From the NCBI GenBank assembly GCA_016213135.1, contig JACRBQ010000035.1, positions 85,722 through 149,721 of the forward strand: 64,000 nucleotides of DNA. The letters run 5' to 3'. This DNA is from Chloroflexota bacterium. Its GTDB lineage: Bacteria > Chloroflexota > Anaerolineae > Anaerolineales > VGOW01. Each line of letters begins with the position of its first letter. Position 1 is the first letter of the stretch. Positions 1 through 60,636 of this stretch are shown here, one piece after another. The position numbers were made by a program, and so were the translations under genes. Under the pieces are notes generated by a model, which saw nothing but the letters and a program-made list of their open reading frames with translations, ran no database searches and was not told the DNA's origin.

Positions 1-53
1 AGCAAAATGCCCTTCAGCGGCCCGCGATACTGGCGTTGAAAAAAGAATTCCAT
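1..53 (-). CDS. N-terminal 17 codons of probable phosphonoacetaldehyde hydrolase (PhnX-like), truncated by window edge
   Basis: Minus-strand ATG at 53 reads MEFFFQRQYRGPLKGIL, resembling the N-terminus of some PhnX proteins (..RYxGPLKavilDWAGTT). It lies directly downstream of phnW on the same strand. Only 17 residues are visible. Confidence 0.45.
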   Translation of the reverse strand, partial: MEFFFQRQYRGPLKGIL

Positions 54-90
54 GTGGGTTCTCCTGGTTGTGAAATAGAGAGGCGTCGGA

Positions 91-1203
91 TCAGAATCCC
101 ATTTCGTCTTTCGTCTCGTGGATGGCGGCGAGCAGGGCGCGCACGTCGGCGGGGAAGATGCGCCCAATGCAGCCGATGCGGAAGCAGTCGGCGTTGCTCA
201 CTTTGCCGGGATAGATGACGAAGCCCTTGTCGTTGAGCCGGGTGTAGAACCGGTCGAAGTTGAAGTCCGGATGATCGGGATAGCGGAACGAGACGATGAT
301 GTAGCCCTGATCCGCCGGGCGAAGATATTCGCGGAAGCCCAGTGGGCGCATGCCCGCCATGAGTGCGCCATAGTTGGCGCGGTAGCGCTTGGCCCGGCCC
401 GCCACGCCGCCCTCGCCGTCCAACTCGTCGAGGGCCTGATGAAAGGCCAGCAGCGCATGGGTGGGCGGCGTAAACCGGAATTGGCCGTTGCTCTCCAGCC
501 CCTTCCACTGGGCCAGCATGTCGAGACTCACGGTGCGCGCCCGGCCCTCGCATTCCAGCAGCGCCTCGCGCCGGGCAATGATGAACCCGAATCCCGGCAC
601 GCCCTCGATGCACTTGTTGGCCGAGGACACGATGAAGTCGATGTCGCCCTCGGCCAGGTTTATGGGCACGCCGCCGAAGCTGCTCATGGCATCCACGATG
701 AAGCGGCGATGATGTTTCCTTTTGACCAACGCGCCAATGGCCTCGATGGGATTGATGAGACCGGTGGTGGTTTCGGAGTGGACAACGGCCACATGGGTGA
801 TGGAAGCGTCCTTCGAGAGGGTTTCGTCAATATCGGCCAGAGCCGGTTGGCGATCTTCGGGATAGGTCAACGCCACGATGTCAATCTTGTGCGCGCGGGC
901 AATTTGAATGATGCGCTGCCCGTACGCCCCGTTGGCGATGGCGAGCAGTTTGCCGCCGGGGGGCAGGGCGGTGGAGAGGACGGCCTCCACGCTGAACGTG
1001 CCGCTGCCCTGCATGAGGATGGCTTCGTACTCCGGCGAGGCCACCCCGCCCAAAGCCGGCAGGCGACGGCGAATGTCTTTCACCAGTTCGACGAACTCGA
1101 AATCGCGCGAGCCGAGGTCGCGCTGCATGGCCTGCTTGACGGTGCGGCTGGTGGTGAGCGGGCCGGGGGTGAAGAGGGGTTTGTCTTTGGCAGTAGAGAT
1201 CAT
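91..1203 (-). CDS. phnW: 2-aminoethylphosphonate--pyruvate transaminase (class V aminotransferase)
   Basis: Start TPGPLTTSRTVKQAM, DAMSSFGGVPI, SSANKCIEGVPGFGF PLP-lysine region; AGGAGG RBS before ATG at 1203. Confidence 0.9.
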   Translation of the reverse strand: MISTAKDKPLFTPGPLTTSRTVKQAMQRDLGSRDFEFVELVKDIRRRLPALGGVASPEYEAILMQGSGTFSVEAVLSTALPPGGKLLAIANGAYGQRIIQIARAHKIDIVALTYPEDRQPALADIDETLSKDASITHVAVVHSETTTGLINPIEAIGALVKRKHHRRFIVDAMSSFGGVPINLAEGDIDFIVSSANKCIEGVPGFGFIIARREALLECEGRARTVSLDMLAQWKGLESNGQFRFTPPTHALLAFHQALDELDGEGGVAGRAKRYRANYGALMAGMRPLGFREYLRPADQGYIIVSFRYPDHPDFNFDRFYTRLNDKGFVIYPGKVSNADCFRIGCIGRIFPADVRALLAAIHETKDEMGF

Positions 1204-1288
1204 GGCGCCTCCTGCTTTCATGTGAGTACCGCGCCCTTCGACTGCGGCGCGAACAACACGCGCCTCCGCTCAGGGTGCTGGTAGTTGT

Positions 1289-3904
1289 CTATGCTCGCAG
1301 CTTCTTCCCATCCGGATCGTAAAGTGTATCAGCCCCGACCGTGGCCGCCACGTACTCACCCAGCACGTCGATTTGCACCGCCGTGCCCGGCGCGGCCAGT
1401 TCGACGGGCAAGTAGGTGTAGCCGATGGTCTTGCCCACGGTGTACCCGTAGCCCGCGCCACGGATACGGCCCACCACCTGGCCGTTGCCATACACGGCCT
1501 CGCCGCCGTACAAAATGGGGTCGGCCCCGTCGAAGGTCACTACGCACAGCTTGCGCGTCAGCGGCTTGCCTTTCGCTTTCGCCAACGCCTCGCGGCCAAT
1601 GAAGTTGCATGGTGAGCCTGTCGAACCACCGCCCTTGTTCAGCCGCACGCAGAACCCAAGCCCGGCCTCGTACGGAGTGTCGGCGGGGGTCATGTCGCTG
1701 CTCCACGCGCGGTAGCCCTTTTCCAGCCGCAACGTGTCCAGCGCTTTGTAGCCGGCGGGCCGGATGCCGAACTCGGCCCCGGCGGTCAGCAGCGCATCCC
1801 ACACCTTCACCGCGTGCGCGACGGGGAAGTAAAGCTCCCAGCCCAACTCGCCCACGTAACTCACGCGGGCCGCCAACGTCTGTACGGGCGATTCATGGAT
1901 CGCTGGTACGGGCGATTCATGGATCGCTGGTACGGGCGATTCATGGATCGCTGGTACGGGCGATTCATGGATCGCTGGTACGGGCGATTCATGAATCGCC
2001 CCTACTTTGGCCTGAATCGCCCCTACGATGCCAATGTGGCGCGCGGTCATATAGGGGAAGGCCTCGTTCGACACGTTGTCGGGCGTGACCTTTTGCAGCA
2101 CCGCGCGCGCCTGCGGCCCCCACAGCCCGAGGCAGGTGTAGTCCATCGTCACGTCGCGCACTTGCACCGGCGGACGACTATCCGCCCCCGCGCCGGGCAA
2201 GTGCATCACCATCCAGCCCATGTCGCTCGCACCGAAGGCCGTGCCGGTGGTCACGCGGAAGTGGTCGTCGGCCAGCCGCGCAATGGTGAGGTCGGCCTCG
2301 ATGCCGCCGCGCGTGTTGAGGAATTGGGTATAAGTCAAACTGCCTACGGGTTTGTCGATGTCGTCGTCGGCCAGCCGGTTGAGCAGCGCCGGCGCGCCGG
2401 GGCCGCGCACGTCGATCTTGTTGAACGAACTCATGTCGAATAGCGCCACCCGCTCCCGTGCCGCCGCATGCTCCTCGCCCACGCGGTCGAAGTACGGCAT
2501 CCGATTCCAGCCCACCGGGCGCTGGTCGGCCCCGGCCGGCCTGCCGGGCTGGCCGGGGTCAAAATAATTGACTCGCTCCCAGCCGTGCTTCTCGCCGAAT
2601 ACCGCCCCCAAGGCTTTGAGGCGATCGTACAGGGCGCTCTTGCGCATCCCGCGCCCCCACTCGTTTTCGTCGTTGGGGTAGCGGATGAAGTAGTAATGCT
2701 TGTAAATCTCCCGCGCCCGCTCGGCGCAAAACTGCCGGTCGGCAAAGTGCGGGCCGAAGCGCCGCACATTGAACTCGTGCACGTCTTCCGACGGCTCGCC
2801 CTCCACCACCCACTCGGCCAGGGTGCGGCCCACGCCGCCGCCGCCGGCGATGCCGTTGAGCGACATGCCCGCCGCCACGTAAAACCCGCGCAGGCCGGGC
2901 ACGGGGCCGAGCAGGTAAGCGCCGTCCGGCGTGATGGCTTCCGGGCCGTTCACCAGTTTGATGATCTCGGCTTTCTCCAGCACCGGCACGCGGCGCATGG
3001 CGCCCTGCATCAACTCGTCGAACAGCTCCCACTCCGGCGGCAGCAGGCTCTGAGTAAAGTCCCAGGCCACGCCGTCCACCGACCACGTTTTGGGATTGTG
3101 CTCAAAGCCGCCAACCAAATAGCCGCGCACTTCTTCGCGGATGTAAACGAGGTTGTCGGGGTCGCGCACCACGGGCGTGTGGCGCGGCAGCTCGTGGCCG
3201 GGGATGGGTTTGGTGAGGATGAATTGGTGCATCAGCGGCGTCATCGGCAAAGTAGCGCCCACCATCTCGCCGATGCGCGGCGCCCACTGCCCGGCGGCGT
3301 TGACCACGATCCCGGTTTTGATCTCGCCTTGATCGGTGATCACTTTTGTCACTTCCCCGGCAGGCGAAAGCTCGATGCCCGTGACGCGCGTGTTGGTGTA
3401 CACCCTGGCGCCCATCTGCCGCGCGCGCTGGGCCAGCGCGGTGGTGATGCCGTTCGGTTCCAGATAGCCGTCGTCGGGAATGTACACCGCGCCGTGCAGC
3501 GACTCGTCGGACATCGGCGGAAAGATGCGCCGGGCTTCGGCGGGCGAGATCAGGTCCACGTTGAGTCCCAGCGCCCTGGCGCGGCTCAACTGCCGCTTCA
3601 GATTCTTCAACTGGTTCTCGCTCGACGCGAGCCGCAGGCTGCCCACTTTATACCAGCCCAACTCGTCGCCCATCTCGGCCTTGAGCGAGTCGTAGAGTTT
3701 GATGCTGTAGTTCTGCAAGCGCATCAGCGCCGACGAGGTGCGAAACTGCGAAACCAGCCCCACCGAGTGAAACGTGGTGCCGCTGGTGAGTTCGCCTTTC
3801 TCCACCAATGCCACATCCGTCCAACCCATTTTGGCAAGGTGATACAAAATGCTGCATCCGGTGATGCCTCCGCCGATGACGACTACGCGCGCTTGATCTT
3901 GCAT
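1289..3904 (-). CDS. FAD-dependent dimethylglycine/sarcosine dehydrogenase-like protein with C-terminal GcvT (folate-binding) domain
   Basis: N-terminal VVVIGGGITGCSILYHLAKMGWTDVALVEK, GTTFHSVGL (covalent-FAD-His-type motif); C-terminal GcvT motifs VSYVGELGWELYF and DTLRLEKGYRAWSSDMTPADTPYEAGLGF. Confidence 0.9.
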   Translation of the reverse strand: MQDQARVVVIGGGITGCSILYHLAKMGWTDVALVEKGELTSGTTFHSVGLVSQFRTSSALMRLQNYSIKLYDSLKAEMGDELGWYKVGSLRLASSENQLKNLKRQLSRARALGLNVDLISPAEARRIFPPMSDESLHGAVYIPDDGYLEPNGITTALAQRARQMGARVYTNTRVTGIELSPAGEVTKVITDQGEIKTGIVVNAAGQWAPRIGEMVGATLPMTPLMHQFILTKPIPGHELPRHTPVVRDPDNLVYIREEVRGYLVGGFEHNPKTWSVDGVAWDFTQSLLPPEWELFDELMQGAMRRVPVLEKAEIIKLVNGPEAITPDGAYLLGPVPGLRGFYVAAGMSLNGIAGGGGVGRTLAEWVVEGEPSEDVHEFNVRRFGPHFADRQFCAERAREIYKHYYFIRYPNDENEWGRGMRKSALYDRLKALGAVFGEKHGWERVNYFDPGQPGRPAGADQRPVGWNRMPYFDRVGEEHAAARERVALFDMSSFNKIDVRGPGAPALLNRLADDDIDKPVGSLTYTQFLNTRGGIEADLTIARLADDHFRVTTGTAFGASDMGWMVMHLPGAGADSRPPVQVRDVTMDYTCLGLWGPQARAVLQKVTPDNVSNEAFPYMTARHIGIVGAIQAKVGAIHESPVPAIHESPVPAIHESPVPAIHESPVPAIHESPVQTLAARVSYVGELGWELYFPVAHAVKVWDALLTAGAEFGIRPAGYKALDTLRLEKGYRAWSSDMTPADTPYEAGLGFCVRLNKGGGSTGSPCNFIGREALAKAKGKPLTRKLCVVTFDGADPILYGGEAVYGNGQVVGRIRGAGYGYTVGKTIGYTYLPVELAAPGTAVQIDVLGEYVAATVGADTLYDPDGKKLRA
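1882..2026. repeat. Five tandem 24-bp units of a palindromic element (GTACGGGCGATTCATGGATCGCTG; last unit GTACGGGCGATTCATGAATCGCCCCTAC) plus a half unit, inside the DMGDH-like CDS
   Basis: Direct reading: units at 1882, 1906, 1930, 1954 and 1978. Encodes (P)AIHESPV five times in frame on the minus strand. Confidence 0.97.
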
Positions 3905-3940
3905 TCGATGTGTTCTCCCGGTGATTGAAATATCAGCCGA

Positions 3941-5455
3941 TCACGACGTACTTCCCTCGCGCCGTCGGCGTCGCTCCCGCGCGGGCTCGACTTTCTGCCA
4001 TCCCTCCGGCGGCACGGAGTCCCCGGCCACCAACCCGGCAAATTCGGCGCGAACGCGGGCATCCACTTCCGGCGAAAAGACCGCCGGGTTGTCGCGGGTG
4101 AGGATGTCGCGCACGCGCAGCATAGCCCGATCGTGCGAGGTGAGGCGGCCCTTCTCCTCCCACTTGGCGCGCGGGTCGCGGTCGGCAATGTCGGGCAGGA
4201 AGGCGGCCTCCTTCATCCGTTCCAGCGTGTGCGTTTTGTCGATGAACATGCCGCCGGGCCCGGCCTCGGCAATCAAATCCAGAGCCAGGTTTTGCTCGCT
4301 GAACTCGAACCCGCGCGCCGCGCGCTTGAGCATCAGGGCAATTTCGTTGTCGATGACCAGTTGCCCGTAGTCGAGCGACATCAGCGCGTCCATCAGGCCA
4401 CCCATCACAAAATAGTTCAGGCCACCCATCAGCGCCGCCGCCGGCGACATACCCTTCTCGTATCCGGCCTGCGCGTCGCTGATTTTGGAATTGGTGAGGC
4501 CCACGTAACCGCCGCAAGGCACGTTGTAGTAGCGGGCCATTTGAGCAAAGCCAATGAGCAGCATGGCGGTTTCAATGGCCCCCGGCGAATACGCGCCGGT
4601 GCGCATGTCGCCCATCGTGGGCAGGGTCAGGTAGATCATCGGCGTGCCGGGCCGCGACATTTGCGTGAGCACGCTCTGAGCCAGCACTTCGGCGTTGCCC
4701 TGGGCGAGGGTGCCGGTGAGGGTGAGCGGCGAGGTGAGGCCGGCGTTGGGCACCACGGTGCCATAGTGCGGCAGGCCGCGCTCGGCAAAAAACATCAGCA
4801 TCTCGGTCGAGTCGAAGTCCATCGTCAGCGGCGGCACAATGGCGCAATGGCCGAAGGTGATGAAGGGCCGCTCGAGGTAGGCGGCTTCGCTTCCGGCGAT
4901 CAGCGCGCCGAGTTTGAGAATCTGCTCGCCCTCACCCGGGTTGATGACGGAGGTGCGCACGGGCTTGGAACAGTTTTTGAGCGCTGGATAAAAGCGCGAC
5001 AGGCTGAACTGCCCCGGTGGGGCGTCGTCGGCCAGCGTGGACACGGAGAATACGTCAATGCCGGGGAGGCCCATGACGAGGTGCGCGGCGCGGGCGATGT
5101 CGTCGGAGCGGGCGCGGCGCTCCTGCCCGGTGACCGGATCGACCATGTTGGGGGCCGAACTGGCAGTAGCCACCAGCGGCCCGTCGTCGGGCAGGGTACG
5201 GTCGAACTGCGGGTCGCGGGCGTAAAACTTGAATTTGGGCGGGATGACTTTGAGATACTCCTCGACCACGGCGCGCGGGAACTTGACGATGAGCGTCTCC
5301 GAATCCACGCGGCAGCCGTGCGCCGCCAACCGGCTGCGCGCTTTCGGGTTGCGCACCAGCAGCCCCACTTGCTCGAGAATTTCCAGCGCGGCCTCGTGGA
5401 TGCGGCGGACTTGCTCTGCGGTGAGAAACGTGGCGGGGGCGTGCATCGCGGTCAT
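3941..5455 (-). CDS. MttB-family (trimethylamine/quaternary amine) corrinoid methyltransferase, non-pyrrolysine type
   Basis: MTAMHAPATFLTAEQVRRIHEAALEILEQVGLLV..., RAAHLVMGLPGIDVFSVSTLADD, GALIAGSEAAYLERPFITFGHC; no in-frame TAG. The 597-aa ORF-track entry is extended upstream; ATG at 5455. Confidence 0.9.
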   Translation of the reverse strand: MTAMHAPATFLTAEQVRRIHEAALEILEQVGLLVRNPKARSRLAAHGCRVDSETLIVKFPRAVVEEYLKVIPPKFKFYARDPQFDRTLPDDGPLVATASSAPNMVDPVTGQERRARSDDIARAAHLVMGLPGIDVFSVSTLADDAPPGQFSLSRFYPALKNCSKPVRTSVINPGEGEQILKLGALIAGSEAAYLERPFITFGHCAIVPPLTMDFDSTEMLMFFAERGLPHYGTVVPNAGLTSPLTLTGTLAQGNAEVLAQSVLTQMSRPGTPMIYLTLPTMGDMRTGAYSPGAIETAMLLIGFAQMARYYNVPCGGYVGLTNSKISDAQAGYEKGMSPAAALMGGLNYFVMGGLMDALMSLDYGQLVIDNEIALMLKRAARGFEFSEQNLALDLIAEAGPGGMFIDKTHTLERMKEAAFLPDIADRDPRAKWEEKGRLTSHDRAMLRVRDILTRDNPAVFSPEVDARVRAEFAGLVAGDSVPPEGWQKVEPARERRRRREGSTS

Positions 5456-5456
5456 C

Positions 5457-6221
5457 CTACGACTCCAGTGGGGCAGTTTCAGTGACGAAGCGGAAGCGGT
5501 CGCCGCGATACAGGTCGCGGCCATATTCCACGGGCCGGCCGCGGTCGTCGAAGGCCAGGCGCGTTTCCAGCATGAGCGGCGCGCCGACTTTGATCTCCAG
5601 CAGCCTGGCCTCGTACTCGGCGGCGACCACCGGCTCGAGGCTCTGCCGCGCGCGGCTGATGGTGACGCCGTACTCCGTCTCCAGTATTTCGTACACCGAG
5701 CGTTTGGCGAGGTCGAATTGATCGAGCCTGGCAAAGCGAGCTACCGGCAGATAAAACGTTTCGAGCATGGCCGGTTCCTGATTGATCAGCCGCAAGCGGT
5801 GAATGTCGTACACCGCGTCGGAGGTGCGCAAGCCAAGCTCTTTGGCGATGGCGGAGTCGGCCGGGCGTTGTTCCACCGAAAGCACTTTGGCCCCTGGCTC
5901 GTAGCCGCGCTGCGTCATGCCTTTGGTGAACGGCACCAGCTTGCCGGCCTGCCGTTCAATCTTTTTCGCTTCGGTTACATAGGTGCCCGCGCCCTGACGC
6001 CGGACGAGCAGCCCCTGCATTTCCAAACTGTGCAGCGCCTGCCGCAGCGTCATGCGGTTGACGCCGAGGGTCTGGCTCAACTCGCGCTCGGCGGGCAGGC
6101 GGTGGCCCGGAGCCAGTTCGCCCGCTTCGATGCGGTCGAGCAGGCTTTCCGCGATTTGCACGTAAAGCGGAACACCGCCGGCGAGGCGGCGGAGCGGGGC
6201 GGGGCGGCGGGGGTGGGGCAT
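5457..6221 (-). CDS. GntR-family (HutC/UTRA) transcriptional regulator
   Basis: PLYVQIAESLLDRIEAGELAPGHRLPAERELSQTLGVNRMTLRQALHSLEMQGLLVRRQGAGTYV wHTH followed by UTRA-like domain. Confidence 0.93.
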   Translation of the reverse strand: MPHPRRPAPLRRLAGGVPLYVQIAESLLDRIEAGELAPGHRLPAERELSQTLGVNRMTLRQALHSLEMQGLLVRRQGAGTYVTEAKKIERQAGKLVPFTKGMTQRGYEPGAKVLSVEQRPADSAIAKELGLRTSDAVYDIHRLRLINQEPAMLETFYLPVARFARLDQFDLAKRSVYEILETEYGVTISRARQSLEPVVAAEYEARLLEIKVGAPLMLETRLAFDDRGRPVEYGRDLYRGDRFRFVTETAPLES

Positions 6222-6243
6222 TGGGGGGCTACGAATGGCTCAA

Positions 6244-6255
6244 TGGTATATACCA
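6244..6255. promoter_or_regulatory. Candidate GntR/HutC operator TGGTATATACCA
   Basis: Perfect 12-bp palindrome containing GT-N-TA-N-AC (HutC-subfamily consensus), 23 bp upstream of the regulator start and between divergent genes. Confidence 0.6.
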
Positions 6256-6364
6256 ATTGGGGCGACTATAGCACGGAAGGAAAGTCCGTGTCAATGAGGG
6301 AAAACGCGCCCGTGATACACTGACCGCTTCCCAGCCCGGCGCGCCACAGGGCGCGGGCGCCGCC

Positions 6365-7231
6365 ATGACCCTCCTCGGCCTCACCCTCGTCATCTTCTCG
6401 GCCTGTTTTCACGTGGTGGCTCACGTGGTGCTCAAGCGTTCCCTCGACCGGCTGGCCTCGGTGTGGTGGGTGCTGGTGTGGGGCGGGTTGCTGTTGTTGC
6501 CTGTCTTAGTCTTCGATCCCATGCCGTGGTCATGGCCGCTGGCGGGCCTCGTTCTTCTCAGCGGATTCTTTCAGTTTGCCTATTTCTATTCCATTGCCCG
6601 CGCCTATCACACGGGTGATCTCTCGGTGGTGTATCCGCTGGCTCGCGGCACCGCGCCCGTGTTCCTGCTCGTCTGGGCCACGGTGCTCATCGGCGAACGG
6701 CCCACCCTCGGCGGCATCGTGGGCGTGCTGGTGATTGCGGCGGGCATCTACCTCATTGGCCTGCCCCGGCGGAGCGCGTGGATAGAGCCGCTACGGTCGC
6801 TGAGCCGGCCCGGCCCGCGCTGGGCAGTGATCGCCGGGCTGTTCATCTCGGCGTACTCGGCGGTGGACCGCGTGGGGGTCAGACTGGCTTCACCGTTGCC
6901 GTATCTGTTTTTCGTCAATTGGGTGGCGATTGCTTTTCTCACGCCCATGGTGTTGCGGGCGGCGGGGGTCAGGGCGTTGCGCGCCGAAATCGGCTACGCG
7001 CGTTTCAACAGCGTCATCGCCGGGATGACCACACCGCTGGCTTACCTGACCGTGCTGTTCGTGATCCGGGCCGGCGCGCCCGCCAGTTACGTGGGGGCCA
7101 TTCGCGAGATCAGTGTGGTGTTCGGGGTGATATTGGGGGTGGCGCTGTTCAAAGAACCCGGTTCGTTCATCCGGGTGACCGGGGGCGCGTGCGTGGCCGT
7201 CGGGGTGGCGATTATTGGGCTGTTCGGCTGA
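6365..7231 (+). CDS. EamA/DMT-family transporter
   Basis: About 10 hydrophobic helices, repeated EamA halves (ARAYHTGDLSVVYPLARGTAPVFLLVWATVLIGERP...GVILGVALFKEP). Confidence 0.87.
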   Translation: MTLLGLTLVIFSACFHVVAHVVLKRSLDRLASVWWVLVWGGLLLLPVLVFDPMPWSWPLAGLVLLSGFFQFAYFYSIARAYHTGDLSVVYPLARGTAPVFLLVWATVLIGERPTLGGIVGVLVIAAGIYLIGLPRRSAWIEPLRSLSRPGPRWAVIAGLFISAYSAVDRVGVRLASPLPYLFFVNWVAIAFLTPMVLRAAGVRALRAEIGYARFNSVIAGMTTPLAYLTVLFVIRAGAPASYVGAIREISVVFGVILGVALFKEPGSFIRVTGGACVAVGVAIIGLFG

Positions 7232-59661: not shown

Positions 59662-60636
59662 CTATGGCACCGGCCTCGGCAGCAATCCCGCCCGTTCCAT
59701 AATAATTGGCACGGCCTCTTCCCACTCAATCGCCATGATGTGCACTCCGGCAATCCCCTCAATCTCACGCATCTGCTGAATCAACTCGACACAAATCCTA
59801 AGCCCCTCTTCTTTGAAGGCCGCCGCCTTTTGCTTTCTGTCTTCGATGCCCTTGCCCGCCGCCTCCATGCGCGCCACGATCTCGTCCGGCACGTCCATGC
59901 CGGGCACCTGATCGCGCATGTACCTGGCCGCGCCCGGCGTCTTGAGCGGGCCGACCCCGGCCAGGATGTAAACCTGTTTGTGGACGCCCAAATCCACAAC
60001 TCGCTTCATAAACTCGCGGAAGCGCGGCACGTTGTAGATCAACTGTGTCTGGATGAAGTCTGCTCCGGCTTTGGCCTTCTTGCCCAACCGGTAAGGCCGC
60101 CAGTCAAAGGGATCGCCGAACGGATTCTCCGCCGCGCCGACGAAAAAGCGCGGGTTGAGACCTTTGATCTCCTCGCCGCATTGGAGACTTGCCTTGTCGC
60201 GCAAGCCCACCACCATCTGCACCAACTGCAATGAGTCGATGTCGTGGACATTTTTGGACTGCGGGTGATTGCCAAAGGTCTGGTGATCGCCGGAGAGGCA
60301 CAGAATGTTCCGCATGCCAAGCGCATACCCGCCGAGCAAGTCGGACTGCATGCCCAGCCGGTTGCGGTCGCGGCACGTCATCTGCATGACCGGCTCCAGC
60401 CCGGACTGAAAGGCAATTACGCCCGCGCCGATGGAAGACATGCGCACGATGGCCGTCTGGTTGTCGGTGATGTTGGCCGCGTCGACAAAGCCTTTGAGTA
60501 TCCCGGCTTTTTTGCGAACCACTTCGCCGTCCGCATTCTTGGGCGGGCCGAGTTCGGCGGTCACGGCAAAGTGTCCCGCGCGCAGAACTTTTTCCAAATT
60601 GGAGCCTGATTTGTAACCGTTCAACTCGCTCATCAC
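59662..60636 (-). CDS. metF: Methylenetetrahydrofolate reductase
   Basis: VTAELGPPKNADGEVVRKKAGILKGFVDAANITDNQ, GMRNILCLSGDHQTFGNHPQSK, ADFIQTQLIYNVPRF. Confidence 0.94.
   Translation of the reverse strand: MMSELNGYKSGSNLEKVLRAGHFAVTAELGPPKNADGEVVRKKAGILKGFVDAANITDNQTAIVRMSSIGAGVIAFQSGLEPVMQMTCRDRNRLGMQSDLLGGYALGMRNILCLSGDHQTFGNHPQSKNVHDIDSLQLVQMVVGLRDKASLQCGEEIKGLNPRFFVGAAENPFGDPFDWRPYRLGKKAKAGADFIQTQLIYNVPRFREFMKRVVDLGVHKQVYILAGVGPLKTPGAARYMRDQVPGMDVPDEIVARMEAAGKGIEDRKQKAAAFKEEGLRICVELIQQMREIEGIAGVHIMAIEWEEAVPIIMERAGLLPRPVP

Follow-up and report, generated by a model that had tools for sequence, protein, structure and literature searches.

What are an MttB-family methyltransferase and a dimethylglycine dehydrogenase (DMGDH)-like flavoprotein doing in one operon with the two enzymes that degrade 2-aminoethylphosphonate (AEP)? 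The question is raised by a Chloroflexota bacterium (assembly GCA_016213135.1), in a window, i.e., the whole stretch of DNA analyzed, of 64,000 nt (contig JACRBQ010000035.1, positions 85,722-149,721; G000:C140:85722-149721 in our analysis). MttB-type enzymes demethylate quaternary amines, DMGDH-type enzymes oxidize N-methyl groups with folate as acceptor, and PhnW and PhnX convert AEP to acetaldehyde and phosphate. We suggest that these genes probably constitute a coregulated catabolic operon for N-methylated AEPs, with a substrate specificity predicted from gene content. The enzyme families are known ones, and the pathway is a new predicted joining of two known modules. In the literature searched, which left most subscription journals outside its reach, no MttB or DMGDH protein is assigned to phosphonates.

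Organization of the operon

The contig is 231,874 bases long and the window is internal to it, so that the sequence left of base 1 could be read. On the minus strand the gene order is gntR-mttB-dmgdh-phnW-phnX-eamA, and all named genes are intact. The first gene, gntR (5457-6221), encodes a regulator of the GntR/UTRA (HutC/PhnF) type with UTRA and GntR domains. It is followed by mttB (3941-5455), for a non-pyrrolysine MttB-superfamily methyltransferase of 504 amino acids (PF06253, 305 bits); dmgdh (1289-3904), for an FAD amine dehydrogenase fused to a GcvT folate domain; phnW (91-1221, with an alternative start possible at 1203), for AEP-pyruvate transaminase; and phnX, for phosphonoacetaldehyde hydrolase, of which the window holds the 5' end (1-53; whole gene L004:10945-11775). 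The last operon gene, left of phnX, encodes an EamA permease (L004:10018-10893, minus strand). The mttB ATG stands 1 base after the gntR stop codon, making the automatic ORF (3941-5734) over-long; the remaining gaps measure 36 to about 70 bases. The sequence-only reading had described a codirectional minus-strand run of a HutC-type regulator, MttB, a FAD-GcvT protein and PhnW, all of which are present and intact by Pfam and NCBIfam. It had also guessed that the ORF cut at base 1 was PhnX-like, and would have been undone by a left-hand gene that does not cleave phosphonates; that gene is a complete phnX, by TIGR01422 and by alignment to solved homologs.

Both AEP enzymes are assigned above curated cutoffs. 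PhnW scores 473.3 bits against TIGR02326 (cutoff 400.8), in agreement with solved homologs, and carries its PLP lysine in the motif SSANK at residue 203. PhnX scores 329.6 bits against TIGR01422 (cutoff 220) and, when aligned to solved phosphonatases, keeps the Asp of DWAGTT and the Lys and His of GAHKKVH; we take this Asp and the aligned Lys to be the catalytic residues, as in phosphonatase. A divergent gene on the plus strand (6365-7231) encodes another EamA permease, a candidate uptake protein, whose top NCBIfam match is phn_DUF6 (TIGR03340) at 131 bits, under the cutoff of 288, and whose orthologs adjoin mttB in L046, L048, L052 and L067. Convergent with the operon lies a PhnA-like gene of the phosphonoacetate hydrolase family (L004:8913-10001; 231.7 bits, below the cutoff of 407.6).

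The predicted demethylating enzymes

The window MttB has no in-frame stop, and where 7xcl has pyrrolysine it has a Leu; it falls outside the pyrrolysine-containing trimethylamine methyltransferases, scoring 357 bits against TIGR02369 (below 525) and having no in-frame amber codon. Its structural model (mean pLDDT 80) is closest to MtgB (9yce) and MttB (7xcl), with Foldseek TM values of 0.71-0.73 and sequence identities of ~31% and ~26%, respectively. The PF06253 score and the fold shared by the predicted model thus place it in the MttB superfamily. In a tree of 102 proteins it belongs to a supported clade of 92, within which it groups with alpha- and gammaproteobacterial members (SH-aLRT 99); in most of these, mttB is preceded by a LysR gene and followed immediately by a DMGDH-like gene. 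The clade also reaches cultivated bacteria, for example a Desulfosporosinus (L145). Relatives sharing 54-67% identity with the window MttB, or relatives of the DMGDH-like protein, are encoded next to phnW, phnX, pbfA or AEP transporter genes in Chloroflexota, Alpha- and Gammaproteobacteria and Desulfobacterales. In the family to which one Rhodobacteraceae member belongs, only 2/61 genomes were found to carry the clade. This distribution does not support equating the window protein with the widespread MtgB of roseobacters, a possibility considered in a comparison made without the Ruegeria pomeroyi sequence itself.

The DMGDH-like protein has its best solved relatives in the human and rat dimethylglycine dehydrogenases (506 bits). 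It is of the dimethylglycine dehydrogenase type in its domains (DAO, FAO_M, GCV_T and GCV_T_C) and in the covalent-FAD histidine, located in GTTFHSVGL, which aligns to human GSTWHAAGL. Its nearest relative (62-66% identity; sister, SH-aLRT 97) is encoded in the L217 operon gntR-dmgdh-amtIII-pbfA-phnW, and the 28-member clade of DMGDH-like proteins adjoins mttB in nearly every locus. A separate clade of DMGDH paralogs travels with a choline-kinase-like gene, and the window genome has its own copy on contig C142. Within the GcvT part of dmgdh, copies of a 24-bp palindromic repeat form an array in the reading frame (1882-2005, minus strand), and similar copies occur elsewhere in the genome. Translated as AIHESPVP, the array is flanked on both sides by segments whose alignment to the human enzyme is continuous, and it looks like a REP-like element tolerated within a coding gene.

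Promoter-like site and predicted regulon

A promoter-like site of the sigma-70 type, TTGACA-18-TATAGT with a TG before the -10 (extended -10), occurs at 6265-6294 on the minus strand and reads into gntR-mttB-dmgdh-phnW-phnX. It matches 11 of 12 positions and is the sole such site in the 8.6 kb scanned; shuffled sequences contain 1.4 on average, and with about one site expected by chance the match is suggestive only. We place the promoter-side end of the unit near 6294 instead of at 6255, where it had earlier been drawn. About 10 bases downstream of the -10 lies a predicted operator (6243-6256) with the palindromic core TGGTATATACCA at 6244-6255. With 0-1 mismatch, TTGGTATATACCA occurs at one place in the whole 3.8-Mb genome, namely the predicted operator.

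The degenerate palindrome TGGTnTAnACCA has 24 sites (duplicates counted) in 2.45 Mb of related DNA versus 1.4 in mononucleotide shuffles, with a gntR ortholog 17-140 bases downstream of nearly all of them. L185, from a genome of another family, has it between gntR and a plain phnW-phnX pair. In L218, it separates gntR, followed by amtIII, pbfA and phnW, from the divergent genes mttB-mtmB-mtmB-mtxC, and the genome G497 has it ahead of both gntR-phnW (L216) and pbfA-mtmB-mtmB-mtxC-mttB (L080). We read these predicted sites as joining AEP cleavage and the methyltransferases in one regulon. In L049:1384-4395, L053:3260-6816 and L094, a GntR ortholog and the same operator also precede a distant MttB paralog (30-31%) and a corrinoid protein; the regulator family is therefore not exclusive to the substrate of the operon. 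The window GntR itself scores 143.4 bits against PhnF (TIGR02325), under the cutoff of 156.8, and is PhnF-like by context only.

Recurrence in other genomes

The interpretation drawn from the window sequence would have lost its ground if phnW were not conserved with mttB and dmgdh. Instead, unrelated genomes repeatedly combine phnW/phnX or other AEP genes with mttB/dmgdh, which supports that interpretation overall as a candidate pathway. The clearest independent case is L186, with dmgdh-pfkB-mttB, a four-gene ABC transporter and phnW-phnX on one strand. The divergent arrangement of L218 (phnW-pbfA-amtIII-gntR facing mttB-mtmB-mtmB-mtxC) is found again, together with PiT/DUF47, in L047/L086; in L084+L215, phnW-phnX-mtmB-mtmB-mtxC-gntR lies 6 kb from mttB. 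Near clade members in Chloroflexota, AEP genes exceed curated cutoffs in the window, L047/L086 and L186, with further cases by tblastn. In Alphaproteobacteria the genes over cutoff are those for PhnS2 and PhnT2 (L105) and for PhnU2 and PhnT2 (L122), and in Gammaproteobacteria that for PbfA (L153); in the Desulfobacterales loci L135 and L146, PbfA was assigned by 77-79% identity to a PbfA above cutoff. Other common neighbors are PiT, DUF47 and Na/Pi transport genes.

We counted markers by fixed tblastn thresholds in the 92 clade loci and in 28 loci of other MttB paralogs. An AEP marker was found in 11/92 clade loci, a phosphate-transport marker in 17/92 and either in 26/92, many of the contigs being short, versus 0/28 paralog loci for AEP or phosphate-transport markers (one-sided Fisher tests: 0.046 for AEP, 0.007 for phosphate transport, 0.0004 for either). 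The AEP count alone is weak because 3 of its 11 loci (window, L186 and L218) were either the starting material or reached by way of phn genes; more weight attaches to the evidence from the regulon and the operons. A chance neighborhood was rejected, since the linkage recurs and, by a rough estimate, only ~0.02 phnX genes would be expected by chance in all the clade DNA examined, phnX being present in only 25/400 genomes of the phylum. Plasmid records gave no match.

Two distinct MtmB-family proteins accompany mttB in L218, L047, L096 and L084/L215 (PF05369 for the L047 pair). Three methyl groups would then be matched by three methyltransferases, MttB and two MtmB, a correspondence that is suggestive but not proof. 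A different set recurs in Anaerolineae (L054-L066, L088, L147, L159), comprising DeoR, choline-kinase-like, DMGDH, GbcA-like Rieske, PfkB, MttB, PiT, DUF47 and ABC transporter genes. The transporter ATPase is PhnT2-like, below cutoff, and the SBP, PDE37 and one permease beside it have no specific NCBIfam matches; judging from their neighborhood, the clade members that have Rieske and kinase neighbors may act on another substrate.

The genomes of L216, L217 and L218 all have phnW, with pbfA beside it in two, and phnX was not found anywhere in their assemblies. The neighbors of phnW there (L216:5797-8245, L217:5006-8650, L218:6502-9392) encode an acylating dehydrogenase resembling SauS (481-487 bits in the two that were scanned, cutoff 600) and citrate-synthase/citryl-CoA-lyase-like proteins, possibly an acyl-CoA route for phosphonoacetaldehyde. 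An arginase-family gene precedes phnW-phnX at L215:241-1203 (Pfam), and a gene that looks arginase-like by sequence inspection only lies near mttB/pbfA at L153:16102-17052.

Corrinoid machinery

The genome contains, in one cluster, a set for cobalamin-dependent methyl transfer (corrinoid protein, activator and pterin methyltransferase). The corrinoid protein and reductive activator that the sequence-only reading called for do exist, together with MetF, but on another contig, C46. There a stand-alone corrinoid protein carries the single B12-binding_2 domain of the genome and is clustered with a URO-D-type protein, a RACo-type activator, an MtgE-like protein, DUF1638, MetF and a pterin-binding protein; with this one domain in a ~93% complete assembly, no full MetH was seen. 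Orthologs of several of the C46 genes are directly beside mttB in L045, L046, L052, L089 and L092. No copy of the operator was found at the C46 cluster or at the C142 DMGDH paralog; GntR therefore probably does not control the corrinoid module. The earlier idea that the methyl groups feed the folate pool of a MetFV/Hdr cluster is weakened by the C46 cluster having its own MetF. The MetF-like frame of the window (59674-60612) is 48% identical to the MetF of L046, consistent with the MetF that the sequence-only reading placed near the Hdr genes.

Proposed pathway and alternatives

We propose that GntR represses the operon at the palindrome until a phosphonate ligand binds. MttB would then move one methyl group of N-trimethyl-AEP to the C46-encoded corrinoid protein, from which the C46 pterin-binding protein would pass it to tetrahydrofolate, the RACo-type protein and DUF1638 keeping the cobalamin reduced. 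The DMGDH-like flavoprotein would oxidize the N-methyl groups of dimethyl- and monomethyl-AEP and deliver the one-carbon unit to folate, after which PhnW would transaminate AEP and PhnX cleave phosphonoacetaldehyde to acetaldehyde and phosphate. Elsewhere, the two MtmB-family methyltransferases beside MttB would replace the flavoprotein. Both which substrates are used and in what order they are demethylated, from tri- to di- to monomethyl-AEP to AEP, are inferred. PhnW has no activity on N-methyl-AEP (PMC10590968), so demethylation would have to precede it, and one flavoprotein must remove two methyl groups or a second enzyme is needed; the DMGDH paralog on C142 is a possible second demethylase. 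On balance, we favor the wider view that at least three phyla possess a cobalamin/folate methylotrophic route to phosphonate phosphorus, built from MttB and a GcvT-fused dehydrogenase or from MttB and two MtmB-family enzymes, with one GntR regulon over demethylation and C-P cleavage.

Glycine betaine methyltransferase and dimethylglycine dehydrogenase have the same domain families as MttB and the flavoprotein, aerobic cobalamin-dependent demethylation of glycine betaine is known (PMC12478193), and GbcA-like Rieske genes accompany part of the MttB clade. The two genes could thus be an ordinary module from glycine betaine to sarcosine that shares an operon with phnWX by happenstance. We consider this unlikely: a paralog on contig C19 of the same genome is far closer to MtgB (419 bits, versus 229 for the window MttB) and scores 516 bits against Sinorhizobium meliloti 4yyc, and the clade is rare (2/61) in an alphaproteobacterial family in which MtgB is reported to be common, so that a glycine betaine function is disfavored. 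AEP genes and a shared operator, moreover, recur in several lineages. The substrate might instead be another phosphorus-bearing quaternary amine, such as 1-hydroxy-N-trimethyl-AEP or phosphocholine, with AEP one of several products of the regulon. Indeed, pbfA, which is specific for 1-hydroxy-AEP, recurs beside mttB, as do choline-kinase-like, phosphodiesterase-like and PiT phosphate transporter genes; but the only C-P enzymes of the window operon are those of phnW and phnX, without pbfA, and a hydroxylated substrate would leave phnW idle, which makes this proposal improbable too.

A slightly less probable alternative still is that the flavoprotein deaminates methyl-AEP directly to phosphonoacetaldehyde, with PhnW as a side entry and little N-demethylation. 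PbfC and PbfD, FAD enzymes of the same DAO superfamily encoded in phn clusters, do release methylamine from methyl-AEP (PMC10590968), but the flavoprotein retains its full length, FAO_M and both GcvT folate domains included, is most like dimethylglycine dehydrogenases, and belongs to a clade that nearly always adjoins mttB.

Stepwise demethylation of N-methylated AEP, if true, would involve methyltransferase steps that need no O2, unlike TmpAB. It would make methylated AEP available to anoxic or low-oxygen bacteria and link one-carbon metabolism with phosphonate phosphorus. It would also assign a role to an uncharacterized MttB-family clade and add a phosphonate to the carboxylates and simple amines known as substrates of the MttB superfamily.

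Comparison with known systems

With the hydrolytic PhnW-PhnX pathway of AEP, the operon shares phnW and phnX over family cutoffs and a GntR/UTRA regulator; here, however, two demethylating enzymes precede them in the operon, whereas the classical PhnW refuses N-methyl-AEP (PMC10590968). TmpA/TmpB, the sole described use of N-trimethyl-AEP as of 2023 (PMC10590968), have the proposed starting compound in common, but they are iron oxygenases that hydroxylate and cleave it, leaving glycine betaine (PMC10574752, PMC10590968), whereas here the methyl groups would come off first by cobalamin/folate enzymes. PbfB, PbfC and PbfD are likewise phn-cluster FAD enzymes with methyl-AEP as a substrate, but they deaminate it to phosphonoacetaldehyde with release of methylamine, and none acts on trimethyl-AEP (PMC10590968). 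A counterpart in its parts is MtgBCDE of R. pomeroyi, which likewise comprises an MttB-family protein, stand-alone corrinoid, pterin-binding and MtgE-like proteins, RamA/RACo, DUF1638 and MetF, scattered on the genome as they are here (PMC12478193); the window MttB differs in belonging to another clade and in its operon with phnWX and dmgdh. Finally, the window protein shares its fold and superfamily with MtgB (9yce) and MttB (7xcl), but lacks pyrrolysine and is encoded in a phosphonate gene context.
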